A DNA stretch of 64,000 nucleotides, from assembly GCA_030425385.1 (NCBI GenBank), contig JAUIAH010000002.1, positions 1 through 64,000 on the forward strand, read 5' to 3'. The number at the start of each line of letters is the position of its first letter. The first letter of the stretch is position 1. Position numbers and translations under genes: made by a program. The stretch comes from Verrucomicrobiia bacterium (GTDB lineage Bacteria > Verrucomicrobiota > Verrucomicrobiia > Verrucomicrobiales > DEV007). The notes beneath the pieces are model-generated. The model made no database searches. It saw only the letters and a list, made by a program, of their open reading frames with translations, and was not told the origin of the DNA. Shown here piece by piece: positions 5,127 through 62,800 of this stretch.

Positions 5127-5738
5127 TTAGAAGTTGCGGTAGCGACCATCCCGGTAGCCATTGTAGATGGACCCGTTTCGGATGCCGAACGTGATCCCTG
5201 GCGTGCGCCGCTCAACGCTTGAGCGTCGGCGAGGGGCCTCGTAGCGCCGCGGATAGCGACGTTCATCGTAGCGGGGGGCATAACCACGATCGCGCCGGTC
5301 GTCACCATAAGAGGCCCCACACGAGCCCGTGAGATGATGGGTGGCACGGGAAACATTCGCGACCAGACGCCGCACGTGTGTGGAGACCCGCGCATGCCTC
5401 ATGGCGTCTTCGGCTAGATGCACCTGGTGGTCAATCCGGTCCGCCACGCGCAGCAGCGCCTCGTAATTGGCACGCTTTCCATAGTATTTCTTAAGAGTGT
5501 CCCCGTAGTCCTCCATCCGGAAGATAGCCGAGTAAAGGGCGGAATACGCGCCACGGGGTTTCCAGAGTCCCCGATCGATCAGCTCGCGTTTGTAGTCGTT
5601 GAAGAGCGTGTCCGTCGCGCGCTCCACACCTTCGATGGCGTGGCCGACGCCGCCGCGCTGTGCTGACGCCGTTCCGAGCAGCAATCCGCCCGTGAGAGCG
5701 AGGATGGAAGCGGTTTTGAGGAAGTTGCGTTTGTTCAT
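5127..5738 (-). CDS. Small secreted Arg/Tyr-rich protein, unknown function
   Basis: A 203-residue protein. Residues 1-26 form a clear signal peptide (charged MNKRNFLK, hydrophobic core, TASA cleavage region). Residues 30-135 look helical (one mentions GYGDTLKKYYGK-like packing); the last 65 residues are very rich in Arg, Tyr and Asp (DDRRDRGYAPRYDERRYPRR), suggesting a disordered basic tail that might bind polyanions or the envelope. AAAGGAG at 5745-5751 (minus strand) precedes the ATG by 6 bases, which supports the start. Monocistronic, closed by the hairpin at 5063-5089. No homologous family recognised. Confidence 0.65.
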   Translation of the reverse strand: MNKRNFLKTASILALTGGLLLGTASAQRGGVGHAIEGVERATDTLFNDYKRELIDRGLWKPRGAYSALYSAIFRMEDYGDTLKKYYGKRANYEALLRVADRIDHQVHLAEDAMRHARVSTHVRRLVANVSRATHHLTGSCGASYGDDRRDRGYAPRYDERRYPRRYEAPRRRSSVERRTPGITFGIRNGSIYNGYRDGRYRNF

Positions 5739-5870
5739 AGTAGTCTCCTTTCACCTGTTCAGACGGCACCTGGCACGGGAATATTCACGAATCCTCCCTG
5801 GGAGGGAGCCGCAGCTGCGTTTTTATGATTGCGTCTCACGGGGAACCGGTTTTAGAGGCGGGAGAAAGTT

Positions 5871-7127
5871 ATGATGATGAGCGAACGTCGAGTAGTAGTC
5901 ACAGGCATCGGAGTGATTTCCCCCGTGGGAAATGATCTAGACACCTTCTGGAACCATCTGGTGGAAGGACGAAGTGGCATCGCTCCGATTGAGGCCTTTG
6001 ACACTTCAGAGTATAGCTGCCGATTCGGGGGCGAAGTGCGCGATTTCGACGTGGCGACCTATTTGAAGAATCCAAAGGATGGCAAGCGCATGGATCGCTA
6101 CACCCAACTGGCGATGGCGGCTGGCAAGATGGCCTTCGATGACTCTGGAGTAGATGTCTCAACAATGGATCCGTATCGCATCGGCGTGATCATGGGCAGT
6201 GGCATCGGTGGTCTCGGGACCTTGGAGAAACAGCACCAAACCCTCTTGGAACGCAACCCAAGCCGAGTCTCTCCCCTGACAATCCCGATGATGATCGCGA
6301 ATATTGCTAGTGGACAGTTTGCCATGGAGCACCATCTATGCGGGCCTAACATGAGCATTGTCACGGCCTGTGCCACGGCCAACAATAGCATCGGCGAAGC
6401 CTGGAGAATGATCAAATTTGGAGACGCGGACTGTTTCGTAGCAGGGGGCGCCGAGGCGTCCATTTGCCCTATGGGACTGGCGGGCTTCGGCAATATGAAA
6501 GCCTTGAGCAAGCGCAATGACGAACCGGAACGTGCCTCTCGTCCGTTCGATAAGGGGCGCGATGGTTTCGTCATGAGTGAAGGAGCCGGTGTCGTGGTGC
6601 TTGAAGAGTTGGAATTTGCTAAGAAACGCGGCGCGGAGATCTATGCGGAATTGGCGGGCTACGGCGTGTCTGCGGATGCCTATCATTTGACCTCTCCACA
6701 ACCCGAAGGACATGGCGCCAGCCGTTGCATGGACATGGCTCTGAAGCACGCGGGCATGAACCCGGAGGAGATCGACTATGTGAATGCACACGGAACCTCC
6801 ACGCCGGTAGGCGATGTCTGTGAGACTTTGGCGATCAAGCGCTCCTTCGGCGAACACGCGAAATCGAAGCTCATCGTCAGTTCGACGAAATCCATGACCG
6901 GACATTTGTTAGGTGCTGCTGGAGGCGTGGAATTTGCTGCGTCTATCATGGCAATCCGGCACGGCCTCGTTCCTCCGACGATCAATTTGGACGATCAGGA
7001 TCCCGAGTGCGATCTGGACTACACGCCTCACAAAGCTCGCGAGGCCAAAGTGAACGCCGTGGTGAGCAATTCCTTCGGTTTTGGAGGACACAATGCTTCC
7101 GTCCTCATCCGCCGGTTCGAAGGCTAG
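5871..7127 (+). CDS. fabF: Beta-ketoacyl-ACP synthase II
   Basis: A 418-residue thiolase-fold condensing enzyme of type II fatty-acid synthesis; it extends acyl-ACP with malonyl-ACP in the cytoplasm. The Cys-His-His triad is visible: Cys167 in VTACATANNS, His307 in NAHGTSTP and His345 in SMTGHLLGAAGG. The N-terminal VVVTGIGVISPVG and the C-terminal NSFGFGGHNAS are typical of FabF, and length is normal. Three ATGs stand in a row (5871, 5874, 5877) behind GGGAG at 5860-5864; any could be used. No acpP or other fab gene is adjacent. The last 23 bases overlap the convergent permease gene. Confidence 0.93.
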   Translation: MMMSERRVVVTGIGVISPVGNDLDTFWNHLVEGRSGIAPIEAFDTSEYSCRFGGEVRDFDVATYLKNPKDGKRMDRYTQLAMAAGKMAFDDSGVDVSTMDPYRIGVIMGSGIGGLGTLEKQHQTLLERNPSRVSPLTIPMMIANIASGQFAMEHHLCGPNMSIVTACATANNSIGEAWRMIKFGDADCFVAGGAEASICPMGLAGFGNMKALSKRNDEPERASRPFDKGRDGFVMSEGAGVVVLEELEFAKKRGAEIYAELAGYGVSADAYHLTSPQPEGHGASRCMDMALKHAGMNPEEIDYVNAHGTSTPVGDVCETLAIKRSFGEHAKSKLIVSSTKSMTGHLLGAAGGVEFAASIMAIRHGLVPPTINLDDQDPECDLDYTPHKAREAKVNAVVSNSFGFGGHNASVLIRRFEG

Positions 7128-11955: not shown

Positions 11956-14100
11956 ATGGCGACAGAGAACGACCACATCCGCGGCGGCACACGCTTATCC
12001 GATCAAGGAGCCTTGCTCATTCCCAATCGACTCGCTTTCGATGAATTGCTAGTCTTAGAGAAGGAACTGCAATCCCGTGAAGTGGCCTACCTTGTCGAAG
12101 CGCACGCTGTCCTGGATGCCCCACTCCGCGGCTACTTGGAGAACGATGGGGTCACCACCTTGCAATTTGACGCACGCAAGGATTTGCCCATTGATCTTCA
12201 GAAGGCCCTGCATCAGGAAATAGCCAAGAATCGCCTCGTCATCTTCGTCCCTGGACGCAGCCGAACCTGTGCCGACCCTACCACAACCATCCCTAGCAAA
12301 CTCACTGAATTTCTGTTAGAGACTCGAGTTCGTGTGCATGGCATCTTCGTCGCAAGACCCTTCGAAGCGCGCTTTCCCTTTGAAGCCTTGGCTGAAGATC
12401 CTGGCCCCGTCTTCGTGATCACGGAGCCCTTGGAACGCGAGTCAGTGACCATGGCGAACTTCCAAGAGAAGCTCATGGAAGCTGGGGTGGAAGCCTTTCA
12501 AACGCGTTCCTTCCTGGGCTATCACCTGGGATTCGCCGTCTTGTCAGGATTGAAGCAGAGTGGTGCGACCGCCGGCATCATTGACGGGATCGACGACTCA
12601 GAAACTCCTTACGACAAGATTCTCGCCGCAAGTCTCGCCCTCGCCAAGGTCATTAAGAAGCGAACCTCCAAGAAACGTGTGGGCATCATCTTGCCTCCCA
12701 GCCGCGGAGGCTTTGTCGCTAATATCGCCGTTCTGTTAGCCAACAAAGTCCCGGTGAACCTTAACTTCACCGCGAGCACAGACGCCGTCGCCTCGGCCAT
12801 CCGCCAAGGGGACCTTGATCTGTTTCTTTCAGGCACCGCGTTCATGGAAAAGATGACGCGCTTCTCCTGGCCAGACTCGAAAGCGATGCTGTTGCTGGAC
12901 CAAGTGCTTCCCAAGATCAAATGGAAGATTGCCTGCTGGCTCGTGGTTTCCAGAATGCTCAGCGCCCGTCGTCTAGCGGCACTGATTGGCCTCCCCGAGA
13001 AGGGGGGCGATGAAGAAGCCGTTCTCCTCTTCACGAGTGGTAGTTCTGGAGAACCGAAAGGAGTCGTTCTCTCTCACGCGAATCTGCTTGCCAACGTCAA
13101 TCAATTCGCCTGTCGCCTCAACCTGAGTCAGACCGATAAAGTGCTAGGGTGCCTCCCCTTATTCCATAGCTTTGGATGTACGGTCACCATGTGGTACCCA
13201 TTTATCGAGGGCTACTCGGTAGTCTCTTATCCGAGCCCGGTCGAAACTAAGCGCTTGGCTGAATTGATCGAAACCTATCAAGTCAACCTTTTGTTAGGGA
13301 CGCCCACCTTTCTCCGAGGCTACCTCCGCAAAGGCACGCCAGAGCAATTTGCGAGCATCAAACTCGTGGTCTCCGGTGCCGAGAAACTGCCAGCCGCTGT
13401 TTCCGAAGCGTTCCGTGAGAAGCTTGGACTTGAGATTCTCGAGGGTTACGGACTCACTGAGACCTCCCCGGTAACCAATGCCAACCTCCCCGATCCCGAG
13501 CCCGATCCAGACCCTAACGTTCCGGTATTGCCCGGTCTGCGGCGAGGCTCAGTGGGCCATCTTCTACCTGGCATCGCCGCACGCATCACCGATCCCGATT
13601 CAGATCTTCCTCAGCCCCTTCATGAAACAGGGATGATCTGGCTCAAAGGGGCCAATATCTTTCAAGGTTATTTGAATGACCCTAAGCGCAGTCATGCGGT
13701 ACTCCAAGGAGGCTGGTTCAAGACAGGGGATATTGGAAGACTCGATGCGGACGGATTCCTCTTCATCGAGGGTCGACTCTCACGCTTTTCCAAGATTGGA
13801 GGAGAAATGGTACCCCACGAAACGGTTGAGACGTATCTCAATAACGCCCTTCAATTTGGATCGAGCGATGAACGCCGGCTTGCTATTGCCGGGATTCCTG
13901 ATCCATCGAAAGGCGAAGCTTTGGTACTTCTGTGTACGGATCCAGATCTGGATTTCGATTCCTTGCGGAAACACCTCATTGCCGAAGGCGTGCCTTCCCT
14001 CTGGGTGCCCAAGAAATGGAAGCACGTGGAGACCATCCCATGCCTCGCCTCAGGCAAACTCGACATCCGCGCCTGCCAGGAATTGGCCCTCGCCTCCTGA
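11956..14100 (+). CDS. Acyl-activating enzyme (AMP-binding), Aas-like
   Basis: The frame is open from 11866, but the first 30 residues look non-coding and would leave only 8 bases to folP, so ATG 11956 (714 aa) is preferred. The C-terminal two thirds is an adenylate-forming enzyme: LLFTSGSSGEPKGVVLSH, EGYGLTETSPV, KTGDIGRLD, GRLSRFSKIGGEMV and the final catalytic Lys in LASGKLDI. This set fits long-chain acyl-CoA or acyl-ACP synthetases, and FSKIGGEMV is typical of Aas. The N-terminal 250 residues begin GALLIPNRLAFDELLVLEK, which recalls the start of a PlsC acyltransferase (NHxxxxD) but lacks His and Asp. It may therefore keep only the acyl-activating activity. Seven bases separate it from the RDD gene. 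Confidence 0.8.
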   Translation: MATENDHIRGGTRLSDQGALLIPNRLAFDELLVLEKELQSREVAYLVEAHAVLDAPLRGYLENDGVTTLQFDARKDLPIDLQKALHQEIAKNRLVIFVPGRSRTCADPTTTIPSKLTEFLLETRVRVHGIFVARPFEARFPFEALAEDPGPVFVITEPLERESVTMANFQEKLMEAGVEAFQTRSFLGYHLGFAVLSGLKQSGATAGIIDGIDDSETPYDKILAASLALAKVIKKRTSKKRVGIILPPSRGGFVANIAVLLANKVPVNLNFTASTDAVASAIRQGDLDLFLSGTAFMEKMTRFSWPDSKAMLLLDQVLPKIKWKIACWLVVSRMLSARRLAALIGLPEKGGDEEAVLLFTSGSSGEPKGVVLSHANLLANVNQFACRLNLSQTDKVLGCLPLFHSFGCTVTMWYPFIEGYSVVSYPSPVETKRLAELIETYQVNLLLGTPTFLRGYLRKGTPEQFASIKLVVSGAEKLPAAVSEAFREKLGLEILEGYGLTETSPVTNANLPDPEPDPDPNVPVLPGLRRGSVGHLLPGIAARITDPDSDLPQPLHETGMIWLKGANIFQGYLNDPKRSHAVLQGGWFKTGDIGRLDADGFLFIEGRLSRFSKIGGEMVPHETVETYLNNALQFGSSDERRLAIAGIPDPSKGEALVLLCTDPDLDFDSLRKHLIAEGVPSLWVPKKWKHVETIPCLASGKLDIRACQELALAS

Positions 14101-14107
14101 GCCAGCG

Positions 14108-14734
14108 ATGAGCGAAGAAGCCTCGCAAGCCCCCCCACCACGGAAGCAACTGGCCCCTTCCGATCCCCGCTACGTCTACACAACCGTCATCGAGCGCATT
14201 GGCGGGACGATCGTCGACATGATCTTCCTCCATATCATTCTCATCCCCTTGCGGGTGCCCGCAGCTGATTGGTCGTTCCGCACGGGAACCATTGTCCCCG
14301 CGATCGCGTTTACCCTCGTCTACTTTGGAGTGCTCATTCTCTTACTCCGCTATCGCGGACTCACGCCGGGCGGGTTGCCCCTGCGTTATCGCGTTCGCGA
14401 TTTGGATATGCAGTTTCTATCATGGATGCGTTGCTGGAGACGCATAGCTCCTCACATTATCATACACGCCATTGGTCTATGGCGACTTCACGCCGTCATA
14501 CAAGGGTTTCAGGCGTCGGGAGAACCCTATGATTTCAAGGAAATTCCGGCTCTCATGAAGGAATACGGGGGCCTATGGAATGTGGCTGTGGCGGCGTTGA
14601 ACGGATTTATCATCGTTGACCTGCTCTTCGTGATACAAAGCCCAAGAAATCAGTCGCTAAGTGACCGACTCGCGGGAAGTTTTGTCGTCTCCCGCGCGGC
14701 ACACTCCCATGGCACATCAGACCCACATCGCTGA
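14108..14734 (+). CDS. RDD-family membrane protein
   Basis: The frame is open from 13676, but that part overlaps the synthetase; ATG 14108, 7 bases after the previous stop, gives a 208-residue protein. After a Pro-rich start comes VYTTVIERIGGTIVDMIFLH, which carries the Arg/Asp pattern that names the RDD family, followed by hydrophobic segments near residues 40-60, 65-90, 115-140 and 160-185. LSDRLAGSFVV near the end is the usual RDD closing motif (SLxDRLAGT). Some RDD proteins are linked to ion transport or envelope stress; the role here is unknown. The next gene starts inside its last 26 bases. Confidence 0.75.
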   Translation: MSEEASQAPPPRKQLAPSDPRYVYTTVIERIGGTIVDMIFLHIILIPLRVPAADWSFRTGTIVPAIAFTLVYFGVLILLLRYRGLTPGGLPLRYRVRDLDMQFLSWMRCWRRIAPHIIIHAIGLWRLHAVIQGFQASGEPYDFKEIPALMKEYGGLWNVAVAALNGFIIVDLLFVIQSPRNQSLSDRLAGSFVVSRAAHSHGTSDPHR

Positions 14735-15797
14735 TCTCTTTCTTGAGCACGACGGCATCATGTCGTTCGAGCGCTATATGAGGGAAGCGCTCTATCATCC
14801 GCGCTATGGCTACTACGCCAGCAATATCTCGTCTGTAGGCAAGCGGGGCGATTTCTCTACCAGCGCCACCATCAGTACCATGCTGGGCAAAGCGATTGGC
14901 CAATGGGCCTTGAAACAGCGCACGGAAGTGTTGGGCTTGGGATTTGGCAAACGATGGAATGTGATTGAAATCGGCGCGGGGGATGGCTCGCTGGCTCGCA
15001 GCTTTGTCGATGGGCTCGGCACCTTTCAGCGTCGTTTCGTCAACTATCATATTGTAGATGTTTCCGAGCCACTTCGACGCAAACAACAAGAGAAATTAGG
15101 CCGCCGTGCGCAGTGGCACGAGACCATGGAGGAGGCTCTTACCGCTTGCGAAGGTGAGGCGATCATCTTCTCCAATGAACTCATTGATGCCTTCCCCGCC
15201 ACCATCGTTCGTTGGAACAGTGCTAGCGGAACATGGCAAGAGTTGTATCTCCGCGATCAAGGAGTGCAAGGTTTCTCAGAAGAATACCGCCCACTCAGTG
15301 TCGAGAATGAAGCTGCCGGAAGCTCTGTATTTGGATCCTGGGACCACCCCGAGATTCCATTGAAGGATGGGCAGCGCTGCGAGATTCTCTTTAGTTATCG
15401 GAAATGGCTTCAACCGTGGCTGAGCAAATGGCAGCGCGGAACCATGCTCACGATCGACTATGGAGGTTCCTTTCCTGAGCTCTACCGCAAACGCCCTAAC
15501 GGAACCCTGCGTGGTTATTTCCAAGGAGTGCGATTGGAGGGAGACGAAGTGTTTGACCGCTTCGGGCATCAAGACCTCACGGTGGACGTGAATTTCACAG
15601 ATGTCTGTCAGTGGAGCACGGCCGAAGGTCTCGAAACAGTGCAAGAACGGAGTCAGCGGGAATTTCTCCTGGAGACCCTACCACAGTTAGAAGACTTTCG
15701 CATGCAGCAGCAAGACTCCGCCTTGGAATTTCTTCTTTCCACTTACGGAGCCGGCAATGCTTTTCGCGTATTGGAACAGCGAACGAAGTCCTCATGA
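14709..15797 (+). CDS. MidA/NDUFAF7-type SAM-dependent methyltransferase
   Basis: ATG 14709 (MAHQTHIADLF) is preferred over GTG 14661 and gives 362 residues, normal for the family. It opens with ISFxxYMREALYHPRYGYY-like sequence (here MSFERYMREALYHPRYGYY), then GDFSTSATIS, the SAM-binding VIEIGAGDGSLARSF, and later IIFSNELIDAFP, TMLTIDYGG and QDLTVDVNFTDV. The mitochondrial relative NDUFAF7 methylates an arginine of a complex I subunit; bacterial substrates are mostly unknown. It overlaps the RDD gene upstream and shares ATGA with the exosortase gene downstream, so translation is coupled. Confidence 0.85.
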   Translation: MAHQTHIADLFLEHDGIMSFERYMREALYHPRYGYYASNISSVGKRGDFSTSATISTMLGKAIGQWALKQRTEVLGLGFGKRWNVIEIGAGDGSLARSFVDGLGTFQRRFVNYHIVDVSEPLRRKQQEKLGRRAQWHETMEEALTACEGEAIIFSNELIDAFPATIVRWNSASGTWQELYLRDQGVQGFSEEYRPLSVENEAAGSSVFGSWDHPEIPLKDGQRCEILFSYRKWLQPWLSKWQRGTMLTIDYGGSFPELYRKRPNGTLRGYFQGVRLEGDEVFDRFGHQDLTVDVNFTDVCQWSTAEGLETVQERSQREFLLETLPQLEDFRMQQQDSALEFLLSTYGAGNAFRVLEQRTKSS

Positions 15798-16729
15798 ATT
15801 CTCCGGACACTGCATCGATCACACCGCAGCCGACACCCTGGTGGCGTCGTCTGAATCTCGCCGACGCGATGGGAGTGGCCCTATTTGTCATCTTGATAGG
15901 CCTAACGCTTTATTCTGGAGAATTGGATCACGCGATCATGTCCATGCTCTTCTTCGGCGGGGCGGTCATGATCAAGCGTCGCCAGGGAGCACTCCCTAAA
16001 GAAGTAGATCTGGAAGGTCGCCTCATCGGTGTGGGCATCCTCCTCAATGTGATCGCCTTCTCCGTCATGTACGAGCCCGCCAAAGCAGGGAGCCATGGTC
16101 TCGCCTCAGGAGCCAATCCATGGCTGCGCCTCTACCCCGTGTGCAGCGCCTTAGGCTGGGTCTTCACCTTCGGCGGCATTCGCGGATTCAAACGCTACTG
16201 GCAGGTTCCCTTTCTCTTCCTCTTTCTAGGCCTTCCTTGGATTCTCCTTCGCAAATTCTTCGACATGGCGCTCATTACCGCCACCGCGGTCGCCATGGTC
16301 CTGCGTCTCATTGGCTTTGATGCCTATCTGGAACAGCCTCTCTTCGTAGGCATTGGCGCTTCTCGAGTCAACGTCAACATCGGCTGCTCTGGCATGGAAG
16401 CCATGACCTACCTGTTAGGACTATCCGCCCTCGCACTGCTCGCATTCCGTCCACCTTCCTGGCTGTGGTATGTGCTCGTGCCGCCCATGGCCATTCTACT
16501 AGCCTTCGGCATTAATGTGATTCGTGTGACCTGTTTAAGCCTCTTCAACAATCACCAACGCCCCGACCTCTTCGACAGCTTCCATGTTGGCCTCGGCTCT
16601 CAGATCTTCTCTGGATCCAGCGTCGGAATCTTCTGCCTTAGCTATTACGTCATCCACTGGTGGTGTCACCGCGATCAATTCACGACACAAATACGCTCAG
16701 TAAAGGCGACACCTGTCGCCGAAGGCTAG
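15794..16729 (+). CDS. Exosortase/archaeosortase-family transpeptidase
   Basis: The upstream part of the open frame overlaps the methyltransferase; ATG 15794 overlaps its stop (ATGA) and gives 311 residues. At least eight membrane segments are visible. The three family-defining residues are present in order and spacing: Cys198 in NIGCSGMEAM, Arg244 in INVIRVTCLS and His264 in DSFHVGLGSQ. Exosortases cleave PEP-CTERM-type tails and pass exported proteins to extracellular polymer. No protein in the window ends in a recognisable PEP-CTERM tail, so its substrates lie elsewhere. The transposase on the other strand ends 29 bases downstream. The subfamily cannot be named from sequence alone. Confidence 0.8.
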   Translation: MNSPDTASITPQPTPWWRRLNLADAMGVALFVILIGLTLYSGELDHAIMSMLFFGGAVMIKRRQGALPKEVDLEGRLIGVGILLNVIAFSVMYEPAKAGSHGLASGANPWLRLYPVCSALGWVFTFGGIRGFKRYWQVPFLFLFLGLPWILLRKFFDMALITATAVAMVLRLIGFDAYLEQPLFVGIGASRVNVNIGCSGMEAMTYLLGLSALALLAFRPPSWLWYVLVPPMAILLAFGINVIRVTCLSLFNNHQRPDLFDSFHVGLGSQIFSGSSVGIFCLSYYVIHWWCHRDQFTTQIRSVKATPVAEG

Positions 16730-52072: not shown

Positions 52073-53998
52073 CTAACGGAGAATCAACGATTCCATCTGC
52101 GCTAAGACCTCCTCAAATGGCAATCGCTCAAGAAGGCCGAATTCATCTCTTCGCGTGAGGCGCGCGCGTGCTGCAGCAGGGCTGACCAATCCACAAAGAA
52201 ACCGCGTCAACTGACGCGGCGAACGCAATGCGGGATGCTTCTCACTCGCCAGTGCCATGATCATTTCCAGCTCTTCCTGAGTACAAGGCTCGACCCTTGC
52301 TGAGGGAACAGGCTGGGCAGCCTTCCCTTGGCACCTTGAGCAGTGGCCACACGCTTGCTCCGCATGTTCTCCGAAATACTCCAGCAAGGCATTGGTGAGA
52401 CAATGGGGCTCTTCTGAGAGGGCGACCACGCGCCTGAGCCGATCCAAATCATGCGCCTCCCGTGCCGCCATCTGCGCATGCAGGCGATCGGCCACCGCCC
52501 TGGGTGACACCTCCGACGTCAACAGCCGATACCCCTGACACTTTCGCTTCGGTTTCAAATAGAGATCACCAGCCGCTTCGAGCTCGTGAAAGGTCGTCGC
52601 CACCTCCTCCGCTGTGACCTCTAATTCCGTCGCAGCGGCGGAAACATCAACCACCTGCCAGCCCCACGCCTTCTCTCCTAGCGTGAGGAGGCGACGCAGT
52701 AAGGCGCGCTCTTCAGCTTCGCGCCCTCTCAGCACATGACTCAGATCTCTCACATAACGATACCCATATTGTTGATAAAATGGCCGCGTCGGCTCAAGCA
52801 TCCCTTCCAGTTCCAATGCCGCCATGATGGTCTCCACTACTAACAGACGAATGTCATGGGTGACAGAAAGATCGTAGAAGGACACCTCAACGGAGTCTCC
52901 CTGCCGCAAGACGTGATCGATCAATTGCCGTAAGGCCACTGGCGCTGGCGTGTCGGCATAGGCGAAATTCTCCAAAGTGATGAGGTCTCCCGCACAGGCA
53001 AACATCTCACAAACAGCCAACCCGCCATCCCTTCCTGCGCGCCCGATCTCTTGACTGTAGTTCTCCAAGCTTTTCGGGAGATTGTAATGATAGATCGCGC
53101 GAATGTCGGCTTTATCGATGCCCATCCCAAAGGCGATGGTCGCCACCATGACCGGCACATCTCCCGATAGAAACGCTTCCTGACAGCTTGCTCGCACCTC
53201 GTCTGGCAATCCCGCGTGATAAGCTCGGGCGCGAATGCCCTCACGTTGCAACATCGTAGCGACGGCTTCCGCCGTGAACTGGCGGGTGACGTAGATGATC
53301 ACCGATTCCACAGGGCGCCCACGCAGACGCTCAAGCAACCGGGCATCCCGATCACGGGGCAGGCAGGGAGTGACGCGCAACTCAAGATTGGATCGATGGA
53401 AACTGAGCTGGATATGATCCGCTTTCTGAATACCAAAGGCCTGACAAATATCCCGTGACACTTCCGGGGTGGCGGTGGCGGTCAACGCCAGCACGCGTGG
53501 AATCGACAATTCTGCCGCCATCCGCGCTAGTTTCAGATAGTCCGGGCGGAAATGATGTCCCCACTCCGAGATGCAATGGGCTTCATCGATAGCGAGTAAT
53601 GATAGAGTCGATGACTGCAACCGTTTGCGAAAGCGCTCATCCGCAAACCGCTCTGGAGCCACGTAGAGCAACTTGAGTTTCCCCGCGTCCCAATCGGCCT
53701 CAATCGCCTCCCAATCGTCCAAAGAGAGGCTTGAATCCAAGCGCGCAGCGGGCAATCCTCGCCGCTGCAAGGCATCCACTTGGTCCTTCATCAGCGCAAT
53801 TAGCGGCGACACCACGATGGTCAATCCGTCTAACATCATTGCTGGCAACTGATAACACAATGACTTCCCCCCGCCTGTCGGAAAAACCGCTAGAGCAGAA
53901 CGTCCCTCCAGGAGACAGCGCACGACCGCCTCTTGTCCAGGTCGAAAGGTATCAAACCCAAACCAGCGCTGAAGGGAGGACGAGAGAGCGGTTTCCAC
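52073..53998 (-). CDS. recQ: RecQ-type ATP-dependent DNA helicase
   Basis: The frame is open to 54142, but similarity starts only at LQRWFGFDTFRPGQEAVVR. GTG 53998, behind AGG, gives about 641 residues and leaves room for a promoter; ATG 54076 is possible but would overlap the divergent GTPase start. SF2 motifs: FPTGGGKSLCYQLPA, VVSPLIALMKDQV, LLAIDEAHCISEWGHHFRP, ALTATATP, AFGMGIDKADIRAIYHYNLP, QEIGRAGRDG. A zinc-binding Cys set follows (HCLTNALLEYFG, ACGHCSRC), then a winged-helix region. No HRDC domain is clear. It unwinds DNA 3' to 5' in recombination and repair. Confidence 0.92.
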   Translation of the reverse strand: METALSSSLQRWFGFDTFRPGQEAVVRCLLEGRSALAVFPTGGGKSLCYQLPAMMLDGLTIVVSPLIALMKDQVDALQRRGLPAARLDSSLSLDDWEAIEADWDAGKLKLLYVAPERFADERFRKRLQSSTLSLLAIDEAHCISEWGHHFRPDYLKLARMAAELSIPRVLALTATATPEVSRDICQAFGIQKADHIQLSFHRSNLELRVTPCLPRDRDARLLERLRGRPVESVIIYVTRQFTAEAVATMLQREGIRARAYHAGLPDEVRASCQEAFLSGDVPVMVATIAFGMGIDKADIRAIYHYNLPKSLENYSQEIGRAGRDGGLAVCEMFACAGDLITLENFAYADTPAPVALRQLIDHVLRQGDSVEVSFYDLSVTHDIRLLVVETIMAALELEGMLEPTRPFYQQYGYRYVRDLSHVLRGREAEERALLRRLLTLGEKAWGWQVVDVSAAATELEVTAEEVATTFHELEAAGDLYLKPKRKCQGYRLLTSEVSPRAVADRLHAQMAAREAHDLDRLRRVVALSEEPHCLTNALLEYFGEHAEQACGHCSRCQGKAAQPVPSARVEPCTQEELEMIMALASEKHPALRSPRQLTRFLCGLVSPAAARARLTRRDEFGLLERLPFEEVLAQMESLILR

Positions 53999-54074
53999 AC
54001 GCTGCCTATGCTGGTCTCTGCGCCATCCGTCAACGCACGGTTGATTCTTCCCGCCGCCGCCCGTAAGGACTGCC

Positions 54075-56063
54075 ATGGCGCAAGCCCTTGAAATCGCTGA
54101 GCAAACCCAGGTCATTGACGCCTGTTGGGAACGCTTGCGCACATTGGTCTTGGTGGATCAACAGTGGCCTCGGCCCGACGCCATTCCAGCACGTGAAGCC
54201 TTGCTCCGTTGGGCCCCCGAGATTCACGAACGGCTTCAGACGAAACACGCACTCATCCACCGCTTCGGTGTCATACCCATCGTTGCCGTCGTCGGTCTCC
54301 TCAACAGCGGCAAATCCTCGCTTACCGCCTCATTTCTTAGCGCGGCGAATCGCAAACGGGTCTTGCGAGGCGTGTCACAACGTCAGGGCAGCCAGCGTTT
54401 CACTCTTTGGGTCCCGCATAGCTGGAAAGAAGACACCCTCTTCTTTGAAAAGCTCTGTCAGATGCTCACGCGCGTCTTTGCGACAGAGCCCGAATTGCTT
54501 GCCGATGACGAAGCCGAGGCGCAGGCCCAACAGAATGCCGTAGAGAATCTGCATCGCCCCCTCATTGGCGTCGATGCTAGTCTTACAGAACATCATCTCG
54601 GGATCCTTGATTGCCCCGATATCCAACGTGCCCAACAGATCGATGATCGTAGTCGCTTGGAATTGGTGGAACGCGCCGCCGAGATCTGCGCGGCCGTGTT
54701 CGTCGTCTTTGCGAGGAGCCAGGTAGAGATCCGCACCTTGCAAGACATCCTCGATGCCATGCCTGGTGCCCGCCGCATCCATGCGATCAATTTGATCAAG
54801 GATGACCCGGCAGAGCGCGTCAGAGCCGAAGCTGCTTCCGTGCTCAATCTCGACGCCAATGATCCTGTCTACGGTGCCTACGACTTCCTTTCCGCCCACT
54901 ATCAGAATCGCACTCCTGCGTGGGATCCCAATCTCTCCCGCACGCCCGAAGAACGCATGGCCATGAGCGAGCCTTGCTTCTTTAAGATCCACCCCGACCC
55001 GGCTGCCAATTCCCCAAAGAGCATCGGGGAAGATCGATCGATGAAGGCATTGGCCGATGAGCTCACTCCGCACGCCGTCAAGAGCCGGCGCATGCAAGAA
55101 CTGATCCGAGAGTTCTATCAAGATCTTCAATCGGGAATCGATGCCGTTCAAGAGCGTCTCGACAGCTCTTGGGCGGGGCTCAATGAAGCTTCACGACGCC
55201 TTCGTGATCACTGTCAGGATCTTCTCACAGAAGGTGGTCATTTGCAGATCAAGATGAGCCCTGACATCGTGCAAAGCATGGAGCAAAGCCTCGCACGCAC
55301 CGCCAATGTCTACTATAAATGGCTACTCCTTCCCCAACGCAAGTTCCTCCAAGCCTGCACCAAGCTAGTCGAGAAAGGGCGCGACATCGCCCTCCCTGGC
55401 AAAGCGTTACGCGAGAAGAAGGATGCCTTAGAGTCCAAGTGGCGTGCCAGCGCCTCTCACAAAGTGAAGAAGGGCTCCGTGAAGCCCGAAGACGTCCAAC
55501 GCATGCTCAGTCTATGGAGCAGTGCTATTGGCCATTATCGGGAAGCGGCTGATTGGAAAGAGGAAAGTGAACGGGTCTTGCAGCGCTTTATCGACGAAGA
55601 CAAGACGAACCTGACCGATGCCGAATGGGATGCGCTCACGGGGCCCTTGTGGAAACAGATGCCGAAGAAAGCGCGCCTCCAACTCATCACATCCGCCTTC
55701 CTCATGTTCGGTGGCGTCCTACTCGCATTCTTCGATGGCGGCGTCTCTCTTGTGTCTCTCAAAGCCATGGATTTGTTAGGCGGCATCGGCGTGGTGGCTT
55801 CGTTAGGCGTCAATATGCAAGGTGCCAAGGACTTTGAGAAAGCCCTGGAAGAGAAACTCGGCCTCCAGCAGGTTGCCAATTTCCACGCCGTCGTCTGTGA
55901 CATTGTGGGTCTCCCCCGTGATCGTGAGGATAGAGGCCATTTGCCTGATCCAACGGTGCCTGTGAAGCTGAATCAAGACGCTTTCGGCATCCGCGCGCGA
56001 GGATGGACCCGACACCAGGTGAATGCCGAAGCTTTGAAAGAAATCCGTGCCTATGGTCTCTAA
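54075..56063 (+). CDS. Membrane-associated dynamin-like GTPase A
   Basis: A 662-residue protein. The P-loop is VVGLLNSGKSSL (GLLNSGKS at 74-81); the G3 position reads LGILDCPDIQ (D179-C-P-D, where DxPG is usual) and a G4-like NLIKDD lies at 239-244. Residues 330-535 are long helices, probably coiled (stalk-like). Residues about 535-580 are hydrophobic (LITSAFLMFGGVLLAFF and LLGGIGVVASLGV), fitting membrane insertion or a hairpin paddle. This matches bacterial dynamin-like GTPases in layout, not in close sequence. The next gene, another GTPase, overlaps by 11 bases. Divergent from recQ with 76 bases or less between. Confidence 0.65.
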   Translation: MAQALEIAEQTQVIDACWERLRTLVLVDQQWPRPDAIPAREALLRWAPEIHERLQTKHALIHRFGVIPIVAVVGLLNSGKSSLTASFLSAANRKRVLRGVSQRQGSQRFTLWVPHSWKEDTLFFEKLCQMLTRVFATEPELLADDEAEAQAQQNAVENLHRPLIGVDASLTEHHLGILDCPDIQRAQQIDDRSRLELVERAAEICAAVFVVFARSQVEIRTLQDILDAMPGARRIHAINLIKDDPAERVRAEAASVLNLDANDPVYGAYDFLSAHYQNRTPAWDPNLSRTPEERMAMSEPCFFKIHPDPAANSPKSIGEDRSMKALADELTPHAVKSRRMQELIREFYQDLQSGIDAVQERLDSSWAGLNEASRRLRDHCQDLLTEGGHLQIKMSPDIVQSMEQSLARTANVYYKWLLLPQRKFLQACTKLVEKGRDIALPGKALREKKDALESKWRASASHKVKKGSVKPEDVQRMLSLWSSAIGHYREAADWKEESERVLQRFIDEDKTNLTDAEWDALTGPLWKQMPKKARLQLITSAFLMFGGVLLAFFDGGVSLVSLKAMDLLGGIGVVASLGVNMQGAKDFEKALEEKLGLQQVANFHAVVCDIVGLPRDREDRGHLPDPTVPVKLNQDAFGIRARGWTRHQVNAEALKEIRAYGL

Positions 56064-57837
56064 CAATGCCACTCTAAACATTTGTCTCCAAGCGGCGGAC
56101 GACGTGGAAGCTGCTCTCAATAGTCTTGGAGACACGTCTCACTGGCCAGCCGATCACCAGCTGAGACAACAGTGTGCGCACTATCGGAGTGCATGCAGAG
56201 AGCTAGCCAATCAGAAAGGTCTCGGACAACTCGCCATCGCGTTCATCGGCCCCAAGAACGCGGGCAAGACGACCTTGCTATCCATGCTGGTACGTCTGGA
56301 CGCGCTTCGTGACCAGCTCAGCGCGGGCGAAGGTCTTGCCGGATCCACGGAACGCATTCGATGGATCAGCACCCATCCCATTGATGAATTGAATCGCGAC
56401 GTCGAGGAGAGTCTTCACGTGGATCCTACCGATTTGGTCAATCTTGGATGCGACTACACTTTGGTCGACGTCCCGGGAGCCAACGAGGCCAACCGCAGTC
56501 GCGCCGCAGCCGCCGAACGGGCTCTTCGCGCTGCCCATCTCAAGGTGCTCGTGGTGGAAGCCCGCACGATGGAAGATGCCACCCTGTTAGATTATGTGGC
56601 CAATGCCGACGGCGCCACCATTCTCCCCATCATCAATCAGATTCGTCCAGGGACGGAGGATCAAGAGATCGATGGATTCCTCGCGACGTTGAAGCACGCC
56701 CTACCGGCCTCCAACATTCTTTCACCCTTGCGTATTGGCGACTTTCAACTGGCAAGTGAAGCCAGCCCCGAGGGGGCACTCACAGACGCAGCCAAGCGTT
56801 TCCGAGCACGTCTGCAAGAGTTTGTGCATGCGGAGAAACTCGACGAATTGCTAGAGCCTCAGTTGCTGCGAATGAAGGCACGGTTTGAGGATGACATTCG
56901 GGCGACGCTCACCGATGCGCTGCCAGCCACGGCCGCCGCGGCTCAGGAGTTGCGGCAATTTGAGGACACCCTCGCCACGCAAGCACTCGAACGCCTCCTC
57001 GGCGCGGACGATCACAATCGCACGGTGCAGGCAGCGCTCCGACAGCAGCTCCGCGCGGTGTATCAACAACGGACCCCTGTACTCTTCTTCCCTTGGCGCA
57101 TGTTTGTCAGTCTCGCGAATGTGTTGCATGGCGCCCTAGAGAAAGTGCCGCTCCTCCTGGCGGGCAGCCTCCCTTCGCTCGTGAGTTCGGCCATGACCGC
57201 GGTGAAGAATGTGACCCGTGACCGTGAGTTCCAAACAGAGCGGAGTGAAGGATTGCGCAAGCACGCCGAATGGTTGGTGAAAGAGTCCCTCTTTCCCAAA
57301 GTCAGCCATTTGGAGGCCGCCCTGCGAAGTGACCTGCGTAATGAATCGCTTGTTAGTGAGCGCGATGGACTCCAGGTGGAGTTCGAGGGTCTCGAACTGC
57401 TACAAGCTCGCTCCAGCACGCTCTATCAGGAGACCCTGGATGCTAAGGCCCCCGGTCGAGCCGCCACCTGGGTGACCGGGCTCATCGGTCTAGCCATCTT
57501 CTGGGGCATCTTCATCTGGCCCTCGATCGCTCTCTACAAGGAGTACTTCGCCGCGGTGAACGCCTTCGTTGACGGGCAGGCTCAACCGGCATTTCCAAAG
57601 GACAGCTTTTCCGTGATTGGCACGAGCTTTCTGTTAGCCCTGTTTCCCATGTTGTTCTGGCTTCTGCTCGTCCTCAGTTGGGTCGCCACCCGCTCTCGGG
57701 CTCGAGAGTGTCTCCACATGTTGCGCCAAGGCCATCAGCAAATCATTGAGGATCTCCATGCCCAACGACTCCTTCGCGTGCATGCCCACCATCCTCATTT
57801 GGCGGCCTGTCTACGCCTCTTCTCCCTGAAGTCCTGA
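56053..57837 (+). CDS. Membrane-anchored dynamin-like GTPase B
   Basis: ATG 56053 (594 aa) overlaps the stop of GTPase A by 11 bases; GTG 56047 is an alternative. P-loop AFIGPKNAGKTTL (GPKNAGKT at 66-73), G3 TLVDVPGANEAN (D139-V-P-G142), and a weak G4 (INQIRPGTED). A long helical region (255-455) follows, then two clear membrane helices near 474-495 (VTGLIGLAIFWGIFIWPSIA) and 523-545 (LLALFPMLFWLLLVLSWV). Low similarity to GTPase A outside the P-loop. Tandem unequal GTPases of this kind form heteromers that tether or remodel membranes in other bacteria; here that is inferred. Confidence 0.65.
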   Translation: MVSNNATLNICLQAADDVEAALNSLGDTSHWPADHQLRQQCAHYRSACRELANQKGLGQLAIAFIGPKNAGKTTLLSMLVRLDALRDQLSAGEGLAGSTERIRWISTHPIDELNRDVEESLHVDPTDLVNLGCDYTLVDVPGANEANRSRAAAAERALRAAHLKVLVVEARTMEDATLLDYVANADGATILPIINQIRPGTEDQEIDGFLATLKHALPASNILSPLRIGDFQLASEASPEGALTDAAKRFRARLQEFVHAEKLDELLEPQLLRMKARFEDDIRATLTDALPATAAAAQELRQFEDTLATQALERLLGADDHNRTVQAALRQQLRAVYQQRTPVLFFPWRMFVSLANVLHGALEKVPLLLAGSLPSLVSSAMTAVKNVTRDREFQTERSEGLRKHAEWLVKESLFPKVSHLEAALRSDLRNESLVSERDGLQVEFEGLELLQARSSTLYQETLDAKAPGRAATWVTGLIGLAIFWGIFIWPSIALYKEYFAAVNAFVDGQAQPAFPKDSFSVIGTSFLLALFPMLFWLLLVLSWVATRSRARECLHMLRQGHQQIIEDLHAQRLLRVHAHHPHLAACLRLFSLKS

Positions 57838-57893: not shown

Positions 57894-60800
57894 ATGAAGC
57901 CGTCCACCGAACCCACCGCGCGCGAACTCTTCCTGGAGATTTCGGCCATGTCGTCTCCGGACGAGCGGACGAAGTTGATGGACGAGATCTGCGGTGATTT
58001 CCCTGACATTCGTCACGAGGTGGAGGCACTTCTCGCCGAGGAAGCCGCTATGGGTGATTTCTTGGAATCGGCAGCCATCGACCAGATTCCCCATGCGGAG
58101 GAACCCAAGGTCATCGGCCCTTACAAACTCCTTCAAGAGATCGGTGAGGGTGGCTGCGGCATGGTCTACTTGGCGGAACAAGAACGTCCTGTCCGGCGAC
58201 GCGTGGCCCTGAAGGTCATCAAGCTGGGGATGGACACCAAGAGCGTCATTGCCCGCTTCGAGTCCGAGCGGCAAGCGCTCGCCCTGATGGAGCACCCTAA
58301 CATCGCGACGGTGCTCGATGCCGGCACCACGGAAACGGGACGGCCATTCTTTGTGATGGAACTCGTGCGCGGCGTCCCCATCACGGACTACTGCGATCAG
58401 CACACCCTTTCCATCCAGGAGCGGCTGCAATTGTTCATCCAGGTCACTCAAGCGATCCAACACGCTCATCAGAAAGGCATCATTCATCGCGACATCAAAC
58501 CTTCTAACATTCTCGTTACCGAGAACGATGGCATCCCCGTCCCTAAGATCATCGATTTCGGCATCGCCAAAGCCACTGAGCAGCGCCTAACAGACAAGAC
58601 GCTCTTCACCGAGTTCCAATCGTTCATCGGCACGCCCGCCTACATGAGCCCTGAACAGGCGGAGATGAGCAGTCTCGACGTCGATACGCGGAGCGATATC
58701 TATTCGTTAGGGGTCTTGCTCTACGAGATGTTAGCAGGCACCACCCCATTCGACGCCCAAGCCCTTCGTGAAAGTGGAATCGATGCGTGTCGGCAGACCA
58801 TCCGGACAGAAGAGCCCGATCGCCCTTCACAGCGGGTGAGCACCCTCGCAGGAGATGCCCTTTCCCTCACAGCGCAACACCGCGGTCTGGAAGCTCCGCG
58901 TCTCGGGCATGCCCTCCGAGGTGATCTCGACTGGATCGTGATGAAGTGCCTGGAGAAAGATCGTCAAAGACGCTACGCCACGGCCAATGCGCTCACTCTA
59001 GATCTGGAGCGGTATTTGGAGGGGGAGCTCGTGCTCGCTCGCCCACCGAGCACTCTCTATCGCCTGCAGAAGAGTTTCCGGCGACACCGCGGAGTCGTCA
59101 TTGCCGGCGGGACCGTTGCTCTCACGCTCATTGGTGCCGTGGGCGTGTCGAGCTGGCTAGCCTGGCGCGCCATGAAGGCGGAGGCACAGGCATCCGCTGC
59201 ACAATCCGAGCAGGTCACGCTGCGGGAAATTGCCGAACGTGATCGCGAGCAGGCCGAGGCCAGCGCAGCCTCTGCGCGGCTGAGTCAATACGTCGCCGAG
59301 ATGAACCTGGCCTTTCAGGCACTCGGCGACGGCAACTTGGGCCGCGCCTTCCAACTCTTGCAGAAACACCAGGGAAATGAACCACCTGACTTCGTCTGGC
59401 GCTACCTGCGGAAACTCTGTGAGGGTGATCCTCACGAAGCCCTCATCGATCGTGGCCCGAGCATTCTTGACATCGCCTTTGACTCCAGTGGCGAACTCCT
59501 GGCCGTCGCCACCGTTGAGAGCATCGAGATCTGGGACCTCGCCTTGCGGTCTCGTATCATTCAACTTCCCGCCACTGTCCGCGCCCTGACATTCTCGCCC
59601 AATGGAGAAACCCTCTACACAGGGGACGAACGCGGCATCCGTTCCTGGAACACCACGAGCTGGCTGCCCCAAAGCGGCCCCGCTGATCGCACAGAGGCGC
59701 TAACAATCTCCCCAGATGGGAGGCGCCTTCTCACGGGGGATCACTCGCGCATCCGACTTTACGACACCGCGAGCTGGGTGCTCATTTGGGAGAAACGGGA
59801 ATCCACTTCTCCCATTGCGTTCTCTCCCAATGGCACGCACATCGCTTCCAATCATCGCGACGGTCTCCAGATCATTCTCGCTGCCAACGGGTCTCGCACT
59901 CACCTCCTGGAAGGATCTGATCTCCTCGCCACCCATAGCGTCTTGTTCCATCATCAGGGTCGGCAGGTCTTTGCCCCTCACAATGTGACCTCTACAGACG
60001 GCATCTATTCGGTCGGTCGATGGGATGCTGGCACGGGGCGAGAACTCACCCCCATTCCACCTGCCACAGATACCAACACACTCGCCCATACCAGCGCTAT
60101 CACGGACCTCGCGATCGATCCCCGCAGCCGGACACTCGCCACCGTGAGCCGTGACCATGCCGTGGGTATCTGGGATTTGGAAAGTGGCCGCCAGTTAGGC
60201 CTGCTTCGCGGTCATCACAATGAAGTCCTCACGGCAGCCTTTGCGCCTTCCGGCAACGCCCTTGTCACGGGCAGCGGCGACGGTGCCCTTCTCCTATGGC
60301 CTAACAAAGCCCCTGAGACTCTCGATGCCCCATCCACCACCGGCTTCGCTCTGAGTTTCTCGCCCGATGGGTCGCAGATCCTCGAGATCGATCCTGAACG
60401 GCAGGAGTGGCAGATTCGCCAACCGCAACGGGAACGGGCCTCCCGCTCCTGGCCCCTTGCAGCGGATGGGCCCTTGCAGCCGAGCACCTTCGCCGTGAGC
60501 CACGATTTCTCCACCGCCGTCCAGGTCGTGGGCAAGACCTTGCATCGCTGGGAACTCGCGACTGGCAAACACACTACTCACGAATGCTCACAAGCTCCCC
60601 AAGCTCTCCATCTTTCTCCCGATGGCCATCAATTGATCACTCGGGCACGCGATCACGCCACCTGGTGGACCTTGACCGAGGCTTCCCTAACGGAACACCT
60701 GGGCATGAACGGCGTGGAATGGGCTACCTTTAGCGATGACGGTCATTGCCTCATCACCTTCACCTCGCGAGGGTTCACTCAGGTGATCGACGCCAAGACA

Positions 60801-61205
60801 CGCGAGATCTCTCACACATTCGCCATCGGAACCGTCGGAAGAGGGCGCGCGCTTTCGATCGATGGCAGTTGGCTCGCCACTTCACGTAATCCTTCCGATT
60901 CCGACCATGGGATCGATCTCTGGGACACCGAGACCGGCGAGCGTTTGCAAGAGCTGATTGGGCACAAACAGCGCGTAGCTGCCCTGGCGTTCTCTCCAGA
61001 CAAGCGCATCCTCGCGTCTGCCAGTGACGATAGCACACTCAAATTCTGGCACCTTGAAAGCGGTCGGGAACTCCTCTCCCTGCGCGACTTTGGCCGCACC
61101 TTTCACGGGCTCCGCTTCTCGCCTGATGGCCAATGGCTCCTCGGCAACACGGGTGGCCTCGGGCGTGCTCGCGAAGTGCATCTCATCGAGGCCCCCATGC
61201 GCTAG
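57894..61205 (+). CDS. Ser/Thr protein kinase with C-terminal WD40-like propeller
   Basis: A 1103-residue membrane kinase. After a short helical start comes a Hanks-type domain (about 77-385): Gly loop GEGGCGMVYLAE, ATP Lys in VALKVIKLG, catalytic HRDIKPSN (about 199-206), DFGIAKA, and GTPAYMSPEQAE. One membrane helix lies near 402-422 (VVIAGGTVALTLIGAVG), then a coiled segment rich in Ala/Glu, then WD40-like repeats from about 520 to the end (LAVATVESIEIWDL, LATVSRDHAVGIWDLESG, LASASDDSTLKFWHLESG). This architecture is very common in Planctomycetes and Verrucomicrobia. The propeller is probably extracytoplasmic and senses an unknown ligand. It begins 56 bases after GTPase B. Confidence 0.92.
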   Translation: MKPSTEPTARELFLEISAMSSPDERTKLMDEICGDFPDIRHEVEALLAEEAAMGDFLESAAIDQIPHAEEPKVIGPYKLLQEIGEGGCGMVYLAEQERPVRRRVALKVIKLGMDTKSVIARFESERQALALMEHPNIATVLDAGTTETGRPFFVMELVRGVPITDYCDQHTLSIQERLQLFIQVTQAIQHAHQKGIIHRDIKPSNILVTENDGIPVPKIIDFGIAKATEQRLTDKTLFTEFQSFIGTPAYMSPEQAEMSSLDVDTRSDIYSLGVLLYEMLAGTTPFDAQALRESGIDACRQTIRTEEPDRPSQRVSTLAGDALSLTAQHRGLEAPRLGHALRGDLDWIVMKCLEKDRQRRYATANALTLDLERYLEGELVLARPPSTLYRLQKSFRRHRGVVIAGGTVALTLIGAVGVSSWLAWRAMKAEAQASAAQSEQVTLREIAERDREQAEASAASARLSQYVAEMNLAFQALGDGNLGRAFQLLQKHQGNEPPDFVWRYLRKLCEGDPHEALIDRGPSILDIAFDSSGELLAVATVESIEIWDLALRSRIIQLPATVRALTFSPNGETLYTGDERGIRSWNTTSWLPQSGPADRTEALTISPDGRRLLTGDHSRIRLYDTASWVLIWEKRESTSPIAFSPNGTHIASNHRDGLQIILAANGSRTHLLEGSDLLATHSVLFHHQGRQVFAPHNVTSTDGIYSVGRWDAGTGRELTPIPPATDTNTLAHTSAITDLAIDPRSRTLATVSRDHAVGIWDLESGRQLGLLRGHHNEVLTAAFAPSGNALVTGSGDGALLLWPNKAPETLDAPSTTGFALSFSPDGSQILEIDPERQEWQIRQPQRERASRSWPLAADGPLQPSTFAVSHDFSTAVQVVGKTLHRWELATGKHTTHECSQAPQALHLSPDGHQLITRARDHATWWTLTEASLTEHLGMNGVEWATFSDDGHCLITFTSRGFTQVIDAKTREISHTFAIGTVGRGRALSIDGSWLATSRNPSDSDHGIDLWDTETGERLQELIGHKQRVAALAFSPDKRILASASDDSTLKFWHLESGRELLSLRDFGRTFHGLRFSPDGQWLLGNTGGLGRAREVHLIEAPMR

Positions 61206-61268
61206 ACGGAAACTTTGCGGAATTCAGGTCCGCATGACGCCATCAGGGGTGAACCCCCTATACAATCG

Positions 61269-61430
61269 GTGACCACATCTCTTTCATCACAGACCCGCTG
61301 GCTTATCGCCGCTCTGGGAACCCTCGTCCTGACCGCCCACATCCTCGGGCTATTCGGGGCCGAATCTGAAACAGTGATGGTCCCTGCTGCGACGAAACCA
61401 CCGATTGCCTGGGAGCATCTTGCCTTCTAA
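61269..61430 (+). CDS. Possible 53-residue single-helix membrane peptide
   Basis: From GTG 61269 a peptide with one hydrophobic segment (WLIAALGTLVLTAHILGLFG) and a polar tail (ESETVMVPAATKPPIAWEHL) can be read; the frame is also open upstream to ATG 61215. There is no good ribosome binding site, and GGGGTGAACCCC just upstream may form a small hairpin. It fills most of the 250-base gap between the kinase and the repeat protein. Coding status is doubtful. Confidence 0.3.
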   Translation: MTTSLSSQTRWLIAALGTLVLTAHILGLFGAESETVMVPAATKPPIAWEHLAF

Positions 61431-61456
61431 CCTCGGGCCCGTGTCGGCCATCAAGC

Positions 61457-62800
61457 ATGTCCACGCCCCTCATCCCCTTCGCGACTATCGCGGCGACTGC
61501 GACCGCCGCCTTTGGGCTCGGGTGGATGGCCAAGCCAGCCACTTCCCACGACGCACGTCCCTCTCAGAGCACTTCAGCGATCTCAGTCACCGAGCGGAAT
61601 TCTACTAGCACTTCACCCAAAAGCACAAGGCCCTCCCCTATTGCCGCCTATCTTCCGGCTAGAGGCCCGATGGACGCTGCCAGCATGTCCAAGGCCATGA
61701 GTGCCATGGCCCGTGAGAATGACCCGCTCAAACGGGCGGCCATGTTTACCGCTCTGCTAGAGCAACTCGCACCAGCGAATGCCAAAGCTGCCTTTGCCGC
61801 ATGCCACGATTGCCAGCGCGGTCAACGGCACGGCCACGGGCTTGGAAATGAAATGCACCTATTGCTCAATGCCTGGGGACGTTTGGATGGGAAGACGGCC
61901 ATTGCCGAGCTCGCCTCCATGGCAAAAGCGCAAGGAGACAACTTCCGTGGAGTCACAACCGACGCCTTTCATATCTTCGCGGTACTATCTGGATGGGCGA
62001 TCGAAGATGCCGACGCAGCGATCGCCTATGTTCGTAGCATGGATCGGAATGTCGAACTCTTCACCGCTGGCATTGTGCAAGGATTGATGACCAAAGGCCT
62101 CGACGACGCCGTCGCCTTCATCGGCACGCTCCCAGAAAGTCAGCGCAAGATGCGGGCACACTATATGGTCGGCGTGGCAGATGAAATGTTAGAACAGGGA
62201 ACGAGGGCTGCTGCTGCATGGGCCGTGACTTTGGAGAATGCTAGCCTCAGGGAAGGGGCGATGAGCCGTGTGGCCATGACCTATGCTCATGAGAATCTCG
62301 ACGCAGCGGTCGCCTGGGTGAGTGACCATGCCGACCAACCCTATGCCAAGAAAGCACTCGCCGAAGTGGCGAAAGCATGGGCCGCCAAGGATCCGCAAGC
62401 CGTGATTGATTGGGCCACGGTTCTGCCAGAGGCCAATCAATCCGCCGTCTTCGAGGAGGCTTTTGACCAGTGGACCGAACAGGATCCTACCGGTGCGAGC
62501 GAGTACCTTGCCACGATGTCTGACTCCGCCATGAAGGATTCCGCCCTGCAAGGATTCGCCCAGAAGTTCGCCCGCAAAGATCCTGCGGCCGCGGCGTCTT
62601 GGGCCGAGATCATCCAGAGTGATCAACTCCGTATGGAGACGCTGACACGAATCGCTGATGATTGGCTGCGACACGATCGCGCCTCAGCAAAGGCCTGGCT
62701 CAGTCGCGACAGCGGCCTTCCCCTCGAAACGCAGCAATCGATTCTTGAAGCCAGCGAACGCAACCCGTGGGAGCGTTCCCAAGGCCCCCGCGATCGTTGA
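61457..62800 (+). CDS. Exported helical-repeat protein, unknown function
   Basis: A 447-residue protein with an N-terminal hydrophobic segment (LIPFATIAATATAAFGLGWM) acting as signal or anchor, then a Ser/Thr/Pro-rich linker to about residue 70. The rest is made of helical repeats of about 30-33 residues with recurring WxxxxDPxAAxxWxxxLP-type spacing: WAIEDADAAIAYVRSM, WAAKDPQAVIDWATVLP, WTEQDPTGASEYLATM, FARKDPAAAASWAEII. Similar repeat proteins are numerous in Verrucomicrobia; function is unknown, but such solenoids usually bind proteins. It lies 251 bases after the kinase in the same direction and may be its partner. Confidence 0.7.
   Translation: MSTPLIPFATIAATATAAFGLGWMAKPATSHDARPSQSTSAISVTERNSTSTSPKSTRPSPIAAYLPARGPMDAASMSKAMSAMARENDPLKRAAMFTALLEQLAPANAKAAFAACHDCQRGQRHGHGLGNEMHLLLNAWGRLDGKTAIAELASMAKAQGDNFRGVTTDAFHIFAVLSGWAIEDADAAIAYVRSMDRNVELFTAGIVQGLMTKGLDDAVAFIGTLPESQRKMRAHYMVGVADEMLEQGTRAAAAWAVTLENASLREGAMSRVAMTYAHENLDAAVAWVSDHADQPYAKKALAEVAKAWAAKDPQAVIDWATVLPEANQSAVFEEAFDQWTEQDPTGASEYLATMSDSAMKDSALQGFAQKFARKDPAAAASWAEIIQSDQLRMETLTRIADDWLRHDRASAKAWLSRDSGLPLETQQSILEASERNPWERSQGPRDR

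Follow-up and report, generated by a model that had tools for sequence, protein, structure and literature searches.

Why a bacterial dynamin-like protein should need two unequal subunits has, to our knowledge, been explained for very few systems, and the question arises again from two overlapping genes, here called A and B, of a Verrucomicrobiia bacterium. They lie in the first 64,000 nucleotides of contig JAUIAH010000002.1 (assembly GCA_030425385.1), the stretch of DNA that was analysed as a whole and is referred to as the window. Our analysis makes it probable (about 0.72) that A and B are subunits of an obligate heteromeric dynamin-like machine of the inner membrane, serving membrane maintenance or repair. 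The features concerned are the following.

54075–56063, + strand: gene A, predicted dynamin-like protein of 662 aa (ORF; AlphaFold, Foldseek and VIA)
56053–57837, + strand: gene B, predicted dynamin-like protein of 594 aa from the ATG at 56053 (ORF; AlphaFold, Foldseek and VIA)
56053–56063, + strand: overlap of A and B, 11 nt (ORF coordinates)
54294–54320, + strand: G1/P-loop of A, GLLNSGKSS, residues 74–82 (intact in 57/57 non-truncated A sequences)
54609–54620, + strand: non-canonical G3 of A, DCPD, residues 179–182 ([D/E]CPD in 58/58; aligned onto DVPG of B by hhalign)
55677–55805, + strand: putative hydrophobic, paddle-like segment of A, residues 535–577 (family-averaged hydropathy; low pLDDT at 563–579)
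56248–56274, + strand: G1/P-loop of B, GPKNAGKTT, residues 66–74 (intact in 57/59 B sequences)
56467–56478, + strand: G3 of B, DVPG, residues 139–142 (DxPG in 56/59)
57088–57180, + strand: highly conserved FPWR...GSLPSL stretch of B beyond the G domain, residues 346–376 (invariant columns)
57454–57687, + strand: predicted membrane hairpin of B, two hydrophobic helices within residues 468–545 (hydropathy 2.04 and 2.22; model helices 469–506 and 519–544)
52073–54142, − strand: flanking recQ-like helicase gene, divergent to A and outside the system (same in 4/4 genomes of the genus)
57894–61205, + strand: flanking Ser/Thr kinase gene with WD40 repeats, 56 nt 3′ of B (Pfam; association partly conserved)

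A preliminary description of this DNA had reported two adjacent GTPase-type genes overlapping by about 11 bases, with P-loops GLLNSGKS and GPKNAGKT, G3 motifs DCPD and DVPG, and a Ser/Thr kinase ORF starting 56 bases after the second gene, and all of this was confirmed from the translations and coordinates. The C-terminal hydrophobic segments that it mentioned are likewise seen in family-averaged hydropathy, which peaks at residues 535–553 and 559–577 of A and, strongly, at 476–494 and 523–541 of B (with a weaker peak at 365–383); these conserved segments are candidate membrane-binding paddles or transmembrane segments. The 346–376 stretch of B contains F346, P347, R349, G360, G371, and S372 of the 12 invariant columns in a 21-row alignment (A4), one row of which has no G domain. 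The listed start of the recQ-like gene overlaps A, and its true start probably lies lower.

AlphaFold models made from alignments of natural homologues (24 for A and 21 for B) have mean pLDDT values of 79.6 (A) and 79.1 (B). The best PDB matches in Foldseek are SynDLP (3.5e-6), BDLP (1.1e-5), and Cj-DLP (2.2e-5) for A, and BDLP (E 1.9e-9), Fzo1 (1.2e-7), and Cj-DLP (2.7e-7) for B. By VIA, A reaches a Z of 16.6 over ~300–330 residues to Fzo1/MFN2, compared with ~13.7 for a plain GTPase, and B reaches 19.4 over 270 residues to Fzo1, compared with ~16.3 for EF-Tu, so that the dynamin-family matches stand ~3 Z units above plain GTPases. Whole-chain TM-scores in Foldseek are low for both proteins (about 0.2–0.36), as hinged molecules can give, and homology of the trunk is therefore weaker than that of the G domain and neck. 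The modelled folds are dynamin-like over the G domain and neck helices, the trunk being only weakly tested.

Sequence profiles see only generic G domains in these proteins, which could be taken to mean that A and B are P-loop GTPases of the Era, Der, or DO-GTPase kind with long helical tails, having only the G domain in common with dynamins. Among curated profiles (Pfam-A and NCBIfam), A matches no family and B only the generic GTPase MMR_HSR1; neither passes the curated cut-off of Pfam Dynamin_N (A, E 0.24; B, 8e-5 and 23.2 bits against a cut-off of 27), and a search of the PDB by sequence gave nothing useful for either. That cut-off is a recognition threshold and no biological defining feature, and we give more weight to the folds. 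Many non-dynamin GTPases also match G domains structurally, but chains of the dynamin family top the Foldseek ranking for both proteins, and their VIA alignments are longer than those with plain GTPases and include helices at both chain ends; we regard a non-dynamin origin as very unlikely. The proposal of a tandem, unequal dynamin-like pair is thus upheld by two models that both match the dynamin family best, together with the near-exceptionless co-occurrence described below. A weak match to Virul_Fac (SrfC) was seen in one member of the B family.

The earlier statement that A and B resemble each other only around the P-loop holds for pairwise BLAST, which found no similarity, but not for the family profiles, which hhalign aligns across the whole G domain (164 columns, E 3e-12), placing DCPD of A on DVPG of B and ‘INLIK’ of A on ‘INQIR’ of B.

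The nucleotide-binding motifs bear on how the two subunits may divide their work. The P-loop, GxxxxGK[ST], is kept in all 57 non-truncated A sequences and in 57 of 59 B sequences. G3 departs from the canonical DxxG in A, where it reads [D/E]CPD without exception (58/58), and agrees with it in B (DxPG in 56/59). In G4 of A the Asn is kept in 48/49 sequences and the Asp of [N/T]KxD is replaced, mostly by R or K; B G4 also departs from [N/T]KxD and is as degenerate. Found alongside an intact P-loop, the DCPD of A is, judged by sequence conservation, a family signature. Because both proteins are without the NKxD Asp, and A without the G3 Gly, guanine specificity and canonical GTP hydrolysis are not assured; a dynamin-like ATPase exists (EHD, so named in the title of PDB 2qpt), and the term GTPase is thus applied to A and B presumptively.

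From the odd G3 it had been suggested that one subunit may be regulatory, which would make A catalytically dead and B the working GTPase. An Asp in place of Gly in G3 and a degenerate G4 would suit such a subunit, but the G4 of B is equally degenerate, and the P-loop and [D/E]CPD of A are conserved above the motifs of B. In two lineages (L069 and G807) it is B, not A, that has no G1, G3, or G4, and the partner A retains its motifs; loss of the A P-loop or DCPD occurs in no lineage examined. This pattern of loss, in B of two lineages and never in A, indicates that the nucleotide site of A is under the stronger selection. The suggestion of a regulatory A is not borne out by this comparison, and we consider it improbable, if somewhat less so than a non-dynamin origin. 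The B of G807, its nucleotide motifs gone, retains hydrophobic C-terminal stretches. In that genome (L173, contig G807:C2) the A–B pair is tandemly duplicated (5306–9153 and 12161–16008), with B devoid of any nucleotide-binding motif; the lineage whose B lost its P-loop while A retains one is represented by L069, 11857–13665.

A is found in 8 of 190 genomes of the window's order, and B, at full strength, in the same eight. An alignment-based search across phyla, with one genome per species, returned 24 loci, presumably from Verrucomicrobiota, Planctomycetota, and one gammaproteobacterial symbiont. The pair has a scattered occurrence in Verrucomicrobiota, in a single Planctomycetota family, and in the one gammaproteobacterial symbiont; its phyla are known for unusual membranes. 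B lies directly 3′ of A in nearly all 24 loci (at L054, A has no adjoining B, which is on another contig), and since relatives of both genes keep the same order across phyla, the arrangement is not due to chance. A phylum-wide scan with A1 gave, besides the window, only short N-terminal P-loop matches, and an A1 scan in the planctomycete phylum yielded the centre genome alone. Searches of the open-licence literature turned up no account of these proteins from either planctomycetes or verrucomicrobia.

Among 199 genomes of Pirellulaceae, the planctomycete family of L055, both genes are present in 90, A alone in one, and B alone in one, and both singletons are genes cut by contig ends; the Fisher p for co-occurrence is about 4e-55 before correction for relatedness and is inflated by shared ancestry. 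With these 90 genomes and all eight of the window's order, the homologues plainly occur together. The trees of A and B (45 pairs) are congruent as well (r = 0.965, a value inflated by shared ancestry; permutation maximum 0.27), with 18 of 19 well supported A splits recovered in the B tree.

A is followed directly by B in 69 of the 90 Pirellulaceae genomes. In the other 21 the genes are non-adjacent, either on one contig but apart (5 genomes; up to 5.5 Mb, in G872) or on different contigs (16 genomes, assembly breaks possibly among them). In G006, a genome of the window's order, A and B are ~180 kb apart and both are kept. This repeated unlinking without loss, in G006 and in several planctomycete lineages, argues for functional dependence of A and B and is more telling than p or r. 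ORFs of 402 aa with the same N-terminus lie near both A and B in G006 (L027, 3331–4539; L028, 11210–12418); they probably encode a transposase, which suggests that an insertion sequence mediated the separation.

The gene neighbourhood differs between lineages. In the window's genus, the recQ-like gene is divergent 5′ of A in all four genomes. The WD40 kinase is common only to the window and its closest relative, G148, where the apparent start of the gene comes after B, the contig then breaks, and the apparent remainder opens another contig. It was considered as a fixed partner of A–B and rejected: in G099 no such kinase follows B, the nearest relative being elsewhere beside a sigma-factor-like gene, and the kinase seems to move as a unit with the gene 3′ of it. 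In the window (57894–62800) this kinase and the next gene, of 447 aa, apparently move together in related genomes independently of A–B.

In 25 sampled Pirellulaceae regions, which are mutually related and hence not independent, the gene immediately 5′ of A encodes a dCache plus Ser/Thr kinase protein in 11, and B is followed directly, or nearly so, by a gene of the MotA/TolQ/ExbB family (PF01618, 1e-27) in 16; all four stand in a row (dCache receptor kinase, A, B, MotA/TolQ/ExbB) in eight (L147–L173 set). In G872 and G862, whose A and B genes are unlinked, the kinase gene accompanies A and the channel gene accompanies B. These neighbours suggest a signal-controlled machine for inner-membrane remodelling or repair. 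In another clade coaX lies 5′ of A, in four loci after obg. At L051 (5647–12156) the pair is followed by four same-strand genes, one of them encoding an 857-aa P-loop protein with no Pfam match.

The strongest competing view of the role is that A and B defend against phages as a Leo/Eleos-type system, whose dynamin-like proteins safeguard the membrane of an infected cell. B matches the PADLOC profiles LeoBC (1e-9) and LeoA (4e-9), with LeoBC matches in 11/21 and LeoA matches in 7/21 members of its family; the patchy distribution of the pair also agrees with defence, as does L029 (4189–14094), a possible defence-like neighbourhood where A–B adjoins a NERD/UvrD-like gene and a DUF4268 (PDC-S11) gene. 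A, however, matches no PADLOC model, and most neighbourhoods are unlike defence islands, with recQ-, obg–coaX-, primary sigma factor-, and citrate synthase-like genes (translations read by eye). The receptor kinase and MotA/TolQ/ExbB partners are at least as consistent with envelope signalling, and neither A nor B was found on any plasmid record searched. We therefore hold a defence role to be unlikely, though the least so of the alternatives weighed.

For the favoured reading, an obligate heteromeric inner-membrane machine, the computed results are the dynamin-like folds, co-occurrence, co-evolution, motif conservation, and gene order. The analogy with Cj-DLP1/2 points further to a physical complex with the following putative topology and nucleotide hydrolysis, and the same analogy together with gene context to its putative role. 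B would anchor the complex through its C-terminal two-helix membrane hairpin, in a mitofusin/Fzo1-like arrangement, and A would dock by means of a trunk that resembles that of BDLP and is hydrophobic at its tip. Nucleotide binding may then drive dimerisation of G domains, A with B or A with A, and the resulting movement of neck and trunk helices could tether, curve, or fuse membranes, most plausibly in membrane maintenance or repair during envelope stress. Labour would thus be divided between a membrane-anchored B and an A bearing the indispensable nucleotide site. In many planctomycetes the operon may add a Cache-domain receptor Ser/Thr kinase as regulator and a MotA/TolQ/ExbB-like channel protein as partner. 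It is tempting, if speculative, to suppose further that A defines a dynamin-like subfamily of its own, in which the invariant DCPD switch and the absent guanine Asp confer a nucleotide specificity or hydrolysis mechanism other than that of known dynamins, and that A, with B, the Cache kinase, and MotA/TolQ/ExbB, forms a new signal-controlled machine, possibly coupled to the proton-motive force.

With about 100 natural A–B pairs, the family offers a way to test how labour is divided in a heteromeric dynamin: in some lineages the nucleotide site of one subunit is gone, in others the genes are unlinked yet both kept, and the switch of one subunit is non-canonical and invariant. Its loci also bring a receptor kinase and a MotA/TolQ/ExbB-type channel protein into association with dynamin-like proteins.

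Among known systems, LeoA/LeoBC of ETEC (Eleos in defence catalogues) is also a neighbouring dynamin-like pair, and B matches both its profiles at ~1e-9; A, in contrast, matches neither, and the A–B context is mostly no defence or pathogenicity island. LeoA is not among the structural matches listed, which counts neither way. Nostoc BDLP1 (2j68) is the best Foldseek match of B and SynDLP (7zw6) that of A, but A and B belong to another sequence family, form an obligate pair, and include in B two hydrophobic helices near the C-terminus. Mitofusin/Fzo1 gives the highest VIA Z for both proteins and shares with B the order of G domain, helices, two hydrophobic helices, and C-terminal helix, whereas A and B are bacterial, comprise two unequal subunits, and have a non-canonical G3 in A. 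In Campylobacter, Cj-DLP1 and Cj-DLP2 (PDB 5owv and 5oxf) are side-by-side unequal dynamin-like genes whose products match A and B structurally; singly they are inactive, their tethering complex is a 2:2 tetramer, and the majority of bacterial dynamin-like proteins come in pairs (PMC6104087). Unlike them, A has a DCPD G3, no assembly domain was recognised in A or B, and no significant sequence relation to the Campylobacter pair was found. A and B share the traits of a heterotypic bacterial pair, being unequal, usually adjacent, and co-occurring, and constitute a new family pair inside a known dynamin-like kind, surprising in its invariant non-canonical G3 and its kinase and channel neighbourhood.
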